From the NCBI GenBank assembly GCA_947165485.1, contig CAMVAP010000013.1:1-64000 (forward strand): a stretch of 64,000 bases of DNA. The letters run 5' to 3'. Under the pieces are notes generated by a model that saw only the letters and a program-made list of their open reading frames with translations, did not search any database and was not told the origin of the DNA. Position 1 is the stretch's first letter. Every line of letters starts with the position of its first letter. This DNA comes from an uncultured Prevotellaceae bacterium. Its GTDB lineage: Bacteria > Bacteroidota > Bacteroidia > Bacteroidales > Muribaculaceae. The position numbers and the translations under genes are program-made. Below are positions 27,130 through 32,908 of this stretch, in pieces.

Positions 27130-27268
27130 GATGAGGCTGTGTCATGAATTCATGTCTGGAACTTTGATTGGCTTAAAAGCCAAGAAGTTAAACAAAATTA
27201 TTATTGCTTAATTCTTCGAGCGAAGCTCGATCAAAGGTTCCTGTCGCCATTCATGACACGGCCTCATC
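27130..27268. mobile_element. MITE-like element, copy 1 (139 bp)
   Basis: The ends are inverted repeats: GATGAGGCTGTGTCATGAAT at 27130-27149 and its complement at 27249-27268 with one mismatch, extending imperfectly through GGAAC..TTTGAT. There is no coding capacity. The inside contains two small hairpins (TTGGCTTAAAAGCCAA; CGAGCGAAGCTCG). A related element lies at 43148-43255, and a lone terminus (AATTATGACACACCCTC) at 27284-27300. The rest of 27105-27384 holds nothing else recognisable. Confidence 0.75.
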
Positions 27269-27384
27269 AATAGCCAGTGAGATAATTATGACACACCCTC
27301 ATCGGGTACTTGTCAATAATAGGGGCCAGTTGGGTTGCTGTGTGAAGAAGATGATTCAGCAATCAGGCCCCTTTAAGAGGTGAA

Positions 27385-29280: not shown

Positions 29281-29625
29281 ATGGAAAAAATCAGAGTAAT
29301 AAAGTTGTTTAAATCCTATTTCAAGGATTTCTATATCATGCAAACCGATTCGGTGCGCACTAAAATCAATTATGTACTCCGATTAATTGAAACTCAACGG
29401 GTTATTCCCGCAAAGTTCTTTAGAATAATTGAGAACTCTGATGAGCTTTACGAAATCAGAGTTGAATCTGGCGGCAACATTTTTCGCATATTTTGTTGTT
29501 TTGACGGCGGGGCGCTGGTTGTTCTTTTCCATGGTTTCCAGAAGAAGTCACAGAAGACGCCCAAAAACCAAATCAAACGCGCCGAGGCTATTAAAAAAGA
29601 ATATTTTAAAGAAAAAAAAGGATAA
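29281..29625 (+). CDS. HigB/Gp49-type toxin
   Basis: The 114-residue basic protein has the RelE-superfamily layout: two N-terminal helices (RTKINYVLRLIETQRVIPAK), then strands ELYEIRVES, IFRIFCCFDGG and ALVVLFHGFQKKSQKTPK with the conserved KK..TP, and a C-terminal helix of Lys/Arg (AEAIKKEYFKEKKG). This matches phage-derived Gp49-like/HigB mRNA interferases. It precedes an HTH antitoxin gene by four nt. mRNA cleavage is the family role; activity here is inferred. Confidence 0.9.
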   Translation: MEKIRVIKLFKSYFKDFYIMQTDSVRTKINYVLRLIETQRVIPAKFFRIIENSDELYEIRVESGGNIFRIFCCFDGGALVVLFHGFQKKSQKTPKNQIKRAEAIKKEYFKEKKG

Positions 29626-29629
29626 AGTC

Positions 29630-29941
29630 ATGGAAGATAAGAAGAAAAAGGCGATCATGGAGAGTGAGACCTTTGAGGACCTGCTCAACGCTGAGTATGG
29701 AGAAAAGGGCTCTGAAGCTAGAGATGCATTTGAGTCTGGAGCCGAAGCATTTTGCTTAGCTGAATGCCTCAAAGAGCAGCGCAGGCTGGCTGGTTTGACC
29801 CAGGAGCAACTTGCTGAGAAAATCGGCACCAAGAAAAGCTATATCTCCAAGATAGAAAATGGTCGGGCAGACGTGCAGTTATCGACTCTCTTCCGCATCT
29901 TTGCGGGCCTAGGGAAACGTGTATCGGTCACCATCCTATAA
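29630..29941 (+). CDS. HigA-type XRE antitoxin
   Basis: The 103-residue protein has a charged N-terminal part and an XRE helix-turn-helix at about 50-102 (LKEQRRLAGLTQEQLAEKIG then TKKSYISKIENGRADV). It should neutralise the preceding toxin and repress the shared promoter. The start is ATG 29630, four nt after the toxin stop; a longer open frame upstream overlaps the toxin in another frame and is not the real start. Confidence 0.9.
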   Translation: MEDKKKKAIMESETFEDLLNAEYGEKGSEARDAFESGAEAFCLAECLKEQRRLAGLTQEQLAEKIGTKKSYISKIENGRADVQLSTLFRIFAGLGKRVSVTIL

Positions 29942-32118: not shown

Positions 32119-32167
32119 ACCTTTTACTATATACGAGTTATACAAACAGTTTTTCATCATTTGTGCA

Positions 32168-32282
32168 GATTTGTTTGCGATTTGTTTTGATTTTTGCCCG
32201 CTTGCGGGCATCATTGCTACAGAACGTGTCCTCGCTGCGCTCGGAAAAATCTAAACAAATCAAATACAAATCTAAACAAATC
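32168..32282. repeat. Palindromic repeat, left flank of the GxxExxY cassette
   Basis: About 115 bp that is itself an imperfect inverted repeat: GATTTGTTTGCGATTTGTTT at one end and AATCTAAACAAATC at the other, with an internal hairpin GCCCGCTTGCGGGC. It is closely similar, in the same orientation, to 32752-32869. Confidence 0.8.
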
Positions 32283-32311
32283 CATTTATTCAATCCATTT
32301 CACTAATCGCA

Positions 32312-32734
32312 TTATTTTTGGTAATACTTAACTTTATCTATTGTGCCATTCTCTTGCCGGATATACCACTCAGAGTATAGGCCATCTGGTGCAAAATTGA
32401 TTAACATCCCATACTTGAGATGAGTGATGTTCATATAGTTCCACAGTTGACGCCGTTCGCTATTCCCATGATACTTGGCTGACTTTAGTTCAATTATAAT
32501 GTCCTTATTGACGACCAAGTCCATTCTATAGTTTTGGTCTAATTTCACGTCCTTCCAGTAAATGGGCAGATATACTTGCCTTTCAACCAAATAACCTTTT
32601 TGGGGCAATAGGTAAGCTAATGCGGCCTCGTAGGCAGATTCAAGTAATCCACCATGAAACTGACTATGGATTTCCATAGCCACACCAGTAATTTCATGGA
32701 AAAACGGATAGCGACCATCAATGTCTATAATCAT
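32312..32734 (-). CDS. GxxExxY-family protein (PD-(D/E)XK nuclease-like)
   Basis: The 140-residue protein has the namesake GLLESAY motif near residue 30 and the nuclease-like core YRMDLVVNKDIIIELKSAK, with the D...ExK arrangement of the PD-(D/E)XK superfamily, then a WNYMNITHLKYGMLINF segment. Catalytic residues appear intact. The family's role is not established as far as I know. The gene is AT-rich, lies alone between two similar palindromic repeats, and separates the GC-rich miaA and peptidase genes, which suggests an inserted cassette. Confidence 0.9.
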   Translation of the reverse strand: MIIDIDGRYPFFHEITGVAMEIHSQFHGGLLESAYEAALAYLLPQKGYLVERQVYLPIYWKDVKLDQNYRMDLVVNKDIIIELKSAKYHGNSERRQLWNYMNITHLKYGMLINFAPDGLYSEWYIRQENGTIDKVKYYQK

Positions 32735-32751
32735 ATTATCACAAATTATTT

Positions 32752-32869
32752 GATTTGTATGTAATTTGTTTTGATTTTAGCCCGCTTGCGGGCGCAAATG
32801 TCGCAGGAACATGTATCCTGGCTGTTCTCGGAAAAATCCAAACAAATCTATCACAAATACGAACAAATC
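32752..32869. repeat. Palindromic repeat, right flank of the GxxExxY cassette
   Basis: Second copy of the element at 32168-32282: shared TTGTTTTGATTTT, GCCCGCTTGCGGGC, CTCGGAAAAATC and AACAAATC blocks in the same order. It lies directly upstream of the GxxExxY start codon, so it may also carry the gene's promoter. Confidence 0.8.
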
Positions 32870-32908
32870 TTTTAAATCAATCTGCTGTCTTTTATCTATT
32901 ATCATAGT

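Follow-up and report, generated by a model that had tools for sequence, protein, structure and literature searches.

Among described systems, those closest to the locus analysed here are the REP/RAYT systems (REPtrons, REPINs, and BIMEs), which we used for comparison as presented in excerpts of three papers (PMC2817692, PMC8266576, and PMC3733652). According to these excerpts, a Y1 HUH transposase gene lies between inverted palindromes that co-vary with the protein and are kept by complementary changes, while the cognate gene and the copy number go together and gene-less end pairs are dispersed between genes or gathered in tandem clusters. Apart from the enzyme and the copy number, these features are shared by the units described below, which carry a gene of the GxxExxY family; the copy number tends to be higher with the gene here too, in a comparison uncorrected for kinship and with exceptions such as genome G023. 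Unlike in the excerpted descriptions of REP/RAYT systems, the enzyme is of the PD-(D/E)XK type, most ends consist of AT-rich units of ca. 9 bp arranged in arrays, with many end types per genome, and, as judged by eye, a GTAG tag at the hairpin foot seems as a rule to be missing. The GxxExxY unit works like a REP/RAYT system and shares two, possibly three, of its hallmarks. It nevertheless falls outside this group on account of its enzyme: the unit studied here contains no Y1 HUH transposase gene, and the ORF between its ends encodes a PD-(D/E)XK protein. There is a fair chance that GxxExxY units form a class of their own.

Intervening sequences (IVS) of 23S rRNA with their S23/four-helix protein (PF05635) resemble the GxxExxY units in having one small ORF between terminal inverted repeats and a scattered occurrence, as far as excerpts of PMC4990558 describe them. 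They differ from the GxxExxY units, which are intergenic, encode a different protein, and have gene-less and multi-site copies. An assignment to this group was rejected for the unit studied here, which lies between miaA and an S9 peptidase gene and has no S23/four-helix match (the sole Pfam match of its protein at a threshold of 0.001 is PF13366). IS200/IS605 elements and MITEs likewise have hairpin or inverted-repeat ends and gene-less derivatives, but GxxExxY units carry no Y1, TnpB, or DDE gene (here, the single ORF is of the PD-(D/E)XK type, and a DDE transposase gene is absent), and no duplication was seen by eye. The protein itself is reminiscent of Cas4/RecB-type nucleases in combining a PD-(D/E)XK core with downstream Q and Y residues, and 23 of 98 GxxExxY members weakly match one Cas4 model (best 4e-5). 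Unlike these nucleases, the protein studied here has no PADLOC match at 0.01, and a reading as defence system was dropped for this reason.

The GxxExxY gene and its two palindromes

The window analysed here is a stretch of 64,000 nucleotides from an uncultured Prevotellaceae bacterium (contig CAMVAP010000013.1), in which positions 32312–32734 of the minus strand encode a GxxExxY protein of 140 amino acids. It scores 113.6 bits against TIGR04256 (cut-off 35) and 105.6 bits against PF13366 (cut-off 22). In an alignment of 98 relatives with the window protein as first row, residues G29, E32, Y35, D72, E82, and K84 are invariant, while Q96 and Y100 are nearly so. We take the D/E/K set together with Q96 and Y100 to be a PD-(D/E)XK core with the QxxxY motif of RecB/Cas4-like nucleases. 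As judged by these residues, the protein is catalytically intact, and it is under purifying selection with a dN/dS of 0.035 between the window gene and its orthologue in genome G095 and of 0.02–0.18 in 12 of 15 GxxExxY pairs, with dS saturated in the remaining three. A search of solved structures gave a best E-value of only 0.17. Of 296 genomes sampled from the phylum, 152 carry GxxExxY genes, as do 88 of 140 genera. A phage origin was dropped after the protein of locus L010 gave no match in a phage collection and only four GxxExxY loci were found on viral contigs, as was a plasmid origin (5 of 72,556 plasmid records with the window protein as query).

Two palindromes flank the gene, one of 115 nucleotides downstream (32168–32282) and a more worn one of 118 nucleotides upstream (32752–32869). 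Both are imperfect and follow the plan array – hairpin – spacer – hairpin – array, so that the gene sits in the linker between two palindromes, its start 17 bp from one and its stop 29 bp from the other. The inner arm next to the stop (32245–32282, minus strand) consists of degenerate GATTTGTTTA-type units of ca. 10–11 bp and is followed by an outward hairpin, CCGAGC-GCA-GCGAGG (32230–32244, minus strand), with a GNA loop and two G·A mismatches in the stem. The inner arm next to the start occupies positions 32752–32779 of the plus strand. A GCCCGCTTGCGGGC hairpin is found in each palindrome, downstream at 32196–32209 and upstream at 32780–32793. As wholes, the palindromes have the same orientation and are direct repeats of each other, while their inner arms and hairpins are mirror images, with the array first and then the hairpin on each side of the gene.

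To quantify such flanks, we compared the 160 bp before a gene with the reverse complement of the 160 bp after it against dinucleotide shuffles and scored inverted arrays at z > 3. The flanks of the window gene reached z 11.8–14.7 in inverted and ca. 37 in direct comparison. It was alone in exceeding an inverted z of 5 among the 56 window ORFs tested, and at z > 3 the controls yielded 4/56 window ORFs and 2/29 miaA genes (L089 dropped for a stop). The single-stranded DNA fold of the downstream palindrome has a z of −5.2 and −4.3 on its two strands, that of the upstream palindrome −2.8 and −3.2. BLAST with one element found just these two places in the assembled genome (3.03 Mb in 100 contigs, 92% complete), the second being 78% alike over 128 bases. 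No Rfam model came near its gathering score; the best, a miRNA model with 22.6 bits against a gathering score of 180, was read as a chance match to a long stem. Fourteen of the 101 genomes of the genus contain the window-type core, and beside the GxxExxY gene of G058 there are several palindromes in succession. These results bear out what a sequence-only reading of the locus had claimed, namely a gene between two similar palindromes (elements of 115 and 118 nucleotides that BLAST located nowhere else in the assembly), a PD-(D/E)XK-type core (both family models above cut-off, conserved residues in place), and an AT-rich gene among GC-rich neighbors (39% GC compared to 61% for miaA, 57% for the S9 peptidase gene, and 52% for the whole window).

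Two side observations may be added. Positions 29281–29941 of the window contain two small adjoining ORFs that, from their translations only, resemble a RelE/HigB-type toxin and an HTH antitoxin. Elsewhere, locus L009 (G000, contig C48) holds a GxxExxY fragment with an open frame of 55 amino acids and hairpin-array sequence on both sides, i.e., a decaying copy.

Inverted arrays, hairpins, and the proteins they accompany

Inverted arrays were found at 33 of 35 GxxExxY loci of the genus (median z 11.3; L013 dropped for a short flank) and at 28 of 28 loci of the window subfamily (L116 and L123 dropped for a stop), with the window locus counted in both sets. A cross-phyla set, the best 80 of at least 559 confirmed stretches in a collection of named genomes, had arrays at 54 of 75 loci (L131, L163, and L177 dropped for a stop, L180 and L197 as short) or 52 of 74 in a rerun without L129, a duplicate of L038 that was also removed from the identity pairs discussed below. 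Neighboring ORFs of the same genes had arrays in 12 of 122 cases, and at z > 5 the contrast was 44/74 versus 7/122 (p = 8e-17). A later set from the phylum had arrays at 22 of 28 loci (L381 dropped for a stop). Arms at z > 3 were absent from 22/74 cross-phyla and 6/28 phylum-set loci. The array-bearing genes come from Bacteroidota, Planctomycetota, Kiritimatiellota, Chloroflexota, Acidobacteriota, and Proteobacteria, and some of their hosts are isolates, e.g., Stieleria tagensis and Mariprofundus sp. EBB-1. Where the period of an arm is clear, it is mostly 9 bp (21 of 27, with units such as CACGAATTA or CACAGAGAA), and 65 more arms have no clear period by the same measure. A Prevotella nigrescens gene with 68% identity is flanked by window-like repeats that score z 21 in direct but only 3.0 in inverted comparison, and in Bacteroides finegoldii the gene is situated between radA and a gene for an FAD protein, with an inverted repeat of CACAGAG type that measures 30 bp (z 11.2).

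The sequence of the arrays changes with the protein. Among pairs of loci with z ≥ 3 (112 of 135) whose outer flanks (250–1300 bp away) lack blastn similarity, the mean array score rises with protein identity from 10.8 (30–45%) to 16.3 (60–70%), 23.3 (70–80%), and 38.1 (80–90%). The Mantel rho between protein and array is 0.28 for the 112 loci (no permutation exceeded 0.07) and reaches 0.30 when just the 52 loci from other organisms are considered. Within one genome, the arrays of different GxxExxY genes score 12.6 on average (n = 27), slightly above a background of 11.5 (n = 1072; p = 0.03), and pairs with at least 60% identity in different genomes score 19.6 (n = 362). The arrays thus follow the GxxExxY protein and not the host genome. 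The word GGCATCCGC lies in L016-type GxxExxY ends and in some gene-less or four-helix palindromes (L016–L038, L084, L088) and is found as a possible common signal at just 10/61 GxxExxY and 2/25 four-helix loci.

The four-helix genes of the 23S intervening-sequence family (PF05635; L039–L068) are an observation of their own. Inverted degenerate arrays flank them at 26 of 28 testable loci of the genus (L064 and L067 dropped as short), outside any rRNA context as far as this context was examined. Their arrays share a unit family of their own (19.4 among themselves), and GxxExxY and four-helix arrays of one genome are no closer (11.0) than those of different genomes (11.5).

These comparisons make it very improbable that there is no unit at all and that the palindromes are ordinary terminators or host repeats beside small foreign genes. 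Strong palindromes are indeed common throughout the genus, at 27–37 per 100 kb, but paired inverted flanks are rare at other genes, the unit sequence follows the protein family, and gene and ends have moved together (see below). Palindrome density as such proved too unspecific as a proxy for elements: G004, which is without the genes, has 27.5 per 100 kb and thus does not differ from G083 (29.0), G085 (30.5), or G026 (37.0).

The hairpins were studied most closely in a sister subfamily with 63–66% identity to the window protein. On the strand that points outward from the gene, its ends at 18 loci consist of ATTTC, stem, loop, and stem, and 31 of these 36 ends have GNA or GNNA loops. At 16 of the 18 loci, an element has different stems at its two ends, yet they pair, though the figure of 100% stem pairing leans on picking the best stem by ATTTC in 18 of 29 loci. 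When stems were chosen without ATTTC at the 29 loci, GNA made up 27 of 34 three-base loops and TNC two, while 23 four-base loops were mixed. In the window type, the outward hairpin CCGAGC-GNA-GCGAGG has C, C, A, and T as N in four orthologues by eye, whereas the best hairpins found by our script at four window-type loci are not of the GNA kind. Also by eye, GTAG is seen at the tip of L016-type ends (AATTCGTAGTT), while the sister-subfamily hairpins follow ATTTC. GNA and GNNA loops on G-C stems form extraordinarily stable mini-hairpins in DNA according to an excerpt of PMC4686876. Hairpin polarity relative to the gene is the same on both sides, which suggests that the ends are recognized as single-stranded DNA.

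Both properties of the hairpins speak against an RNA-level explanation, which we regard as improbable. By analogy to the 23S IVS, the arms would pair in a transcript from which RNase III excises the element, making the insertion harmless, and the protein would serve spread or RNA handling. The elements do sit between co-directional genes such as those for the peptidase and miaA, and the IVS-type four-helix genes of the genus likewise have inverted arrays (26/28). PD-(D/E)XK nucleases, the family of the GxxExxY protein, as a rule cut DNA, and with equal hairpin polarity on both sides of the gene one transcript would carry opposite senses. The overall plan of terminal inverted repeats around one small ORF is as in the IVS, as far as described in excerpts of PMC4990558, while the exceptional stability of GNA/GNNA loops is, in the excerpt of PMC4686876, a property reported for DNA.

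Occupied, empty, and gene-less sites

We retrieved the 30 best-matching miaA genes of the genus together with their flanks, one from the source genome and 29 from relatives, and in all 30 cases miaA adjoins the same S9 peptidase gene. The gap between them, at positions 32134–32908 of the window, measures only 31 bp in G089 and G081. Four genomes (G000, G095, G058, G072) carry a window-type cassette there in a gap of 790–1082 bp, and in three others (G013, G053, G083) it is filled by a GxxExxY cassette from a different subfamily, whose ends also differ (499–520 bp). The remaining 21 gaps hold 51–242 bp without a gene, and palindromic sequence (z > 3) is present in 19 of these, built from unrelated units (AAGACAAG in 11, TAGTCCCTAG in three, others once or twice); G015 has a worn window-type palindrome (z 1.4). 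The gap is therefore a hot spot that turns over fast, occupied across these 30 genomes by many array types that bear no relation to each other. G072 and G083 have in common the final 49 bp ahead of miaA, which in G083 form the right end of the other cassette, so that the window-type cassette of G072 seems to have replaced a cassette of this other kind.

A gap filled by different cassettes and with empty alleles might also be the work of a free-standing homing endonuclease, which cuts the cassette-less allele so that repair copies the cassette in, with the palindromes as by-products or repair tracts. PD-(D/E)XK homing enzymes exist. We nevertheless consider this explanation distinctly improbable because the ends match the protein, a single protein subfamily is found at unrelated sites, and gene-less ends are dispersed in tens of copies.

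The unrelated sites are clearest for the sister subfamily, in which three loci with 82–84% similarity (L107, L108, L109) lie at mutually unrelated sites and the similarity starts and stops at the hairpins. L016-type elements (84–89% between sites) occupy two unrelated neighborhoods, one before a gene whose product starts with MNRKDFEIMAPVGSW and the other comprising two adjoining gaps of one cluster, one gene apart. In this second neighborhood, L027 has its GxxExxY gene in one gap and L031, L035, and L038 have theirs in the next, while in the gap that has the gene in L027, L031 and L035 still show similar end sequence. Loci L024 and L035 match from AAACTACG to CGTAGTTT and not beyond. No target-site duplication was seen by eye among the L016-type and mini-element loci displayed.

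Many ends are found without a gene. L016-type ends reach up to 90 per genome (G100; nine in the source genome) and sister-subfamily ends up to 81 (G061; 20 in the source genome), while reversed patterns as a control gave one and five matches, respectively, across all 101 genomes. Among the places listed for seven genomes, 22 facing end pairs are spaced at 50–56, 79–84, or 536–558 bp, and three other close pairs do not face each other. The gene-less mini-elements measure 50–84 bp; the 20 presumed mini-element loci, none of which had been chosen for a gene, are end-to-end palindromes where displayed. End copy number is higher in genomes with the cognate gene (medians 38.5 versus 16.5, p = 3e-4, and 17 versus 4, p = 1.5e-3, both without kinship correction). 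The number of L016-type ends does not correlate with how many GxxExxY genes a genome has in total (rho 0.19, p = 0.25), and in G023, whose assembly is 75% complete, a variant end, AACTACAAATTTAACGAATTAGACGAATT, is present in 38 copies while no GxxExxY gene was detected.

An extra outer repeat with the look of a transposon end, GGGTGTGTCATAATT, was seen at 10 of the 16 gene-less sister-subfamily mini-loci, which lie beside or inside it, and at none of 32 gene-bearing loci. The window itself has a gene-less mini-element at 27131–27267 that resembles a worn relative, with an outer inverted repeat, two hairpins, and AT-rich arms (ssDNA fold z −8.6). Mini-elements with this outer repeat were noted at 27131–27267 and 27284–27298 of the window and at L347–L360, among which a nearly identical one is present at two places in G047 (L354, L355).

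These outer repeats lend weight to a rival scenario that we judge to be rather unlikely, in which a RAYT (Y1) or DDE transposase moves the ends in trans as REP- or MITE-like sequences and GxxExxY is a passenger or accessory nuclease. Potential movers are widespread: of the 101 genomes of the genus, 92 have Y1_Tnp/RAYT genes. Of 20 such genes examined (L297–L316), which also served as positive control of our array test, 19 have inverted GC-rich REP-like hairpin arms, some with GAA loops. By eye, however, these RAYT arms look different, GC-rich and without AT-rich units, and the arrays follow the identity of the GxxExxY protein. End numbers are not significantly related to the abundance of Y1 genes (rho 0.15 and 0.10), 18 and 20 L016-type ends are present in two genomes of the clade that lack a Y1 match, and the outer repeat is missing from all gene-bearing loci.

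The sequence-only reading had proposed that gene and palindromes form one unit and had suggested a search for paired palindromes and empty sites in relatives. Inverted flanking arrays were indeed found at 33/35 loci of the genus and 28/28 of the window subfamily, and empty sites as the 31-bp gaps of two genomes. The single unit is supported by the sister-subfamily gene and ends at three unrelated sites and by occupied and empty sites, though the window locus is now to be read as one case of a cross-phyla class with many array sequences. The interpretation is thereby supported in part, with the amendments that gene-less palindromes are common in relatives and that a RAYT-type transposase could act in trans, so that a role of the protein in moving the unit or acting on its hairpins is putative.

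A putative minimal mobile element

With moderate confidence, we explain these observations by a minimal selfish mobile element similar to REP/RAYT systems (REPINs), with a PD-(D/E)XK nuclease matched to its own ends. The ends would be inverted arrays of degenerate units of ca. 9 bp, joined to GC-rich mini-hairpins in the window subfamily, the matched nuclease would be the product of the sole gene, and gene-less end copies would be non-autonomous derivatives. When the DNA is single-stranded, e.g., during replication, arms and hairpins could fold, and the nuclease would recognize its own end and cut there. Host replication or repair might then join a freed or copied unit into the DNA at a different intergenic location. 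The role of the GxxExxY protein as mobility enzyme, single-stranded DNA as its substrate, and this mode of joining are what we infer.

A broader reading, which we put forward tentatively and hold with less than even confidence, is that GxxExxY units are a class of transposable elements across phyla whose sole enzyme, a Cas4-like PD-(D/E)XK nuclease, reads a “code” in its own ends. This code would be either an inward series of the degenerate unit of ca. 9 bp or a DNA mini-hairpin with a GNA/GNNA loop, and code and enzyme would drift together, so that several independent systems coexist in one genome. Such elements might then have left behind, as debris, many of the intergenic repeats of CACAGAG or CGAATTAC type in gut and environmental genomes, and the four-helix “IVS” genes would form a second, parallel class with its own code. 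In the literature searched, the name GxxExxY is very rare, with passages that, in the excerpts found, say nothing on function; the accessions PF13366 and TIGR04256 are likewise very rare there, and the name PDDEXK_3 and six array words are absent. For this family without known function, the matched end that accompanies each protein offers a testable substrate, and many intergenic repeats may find their explanation in a mobile element.
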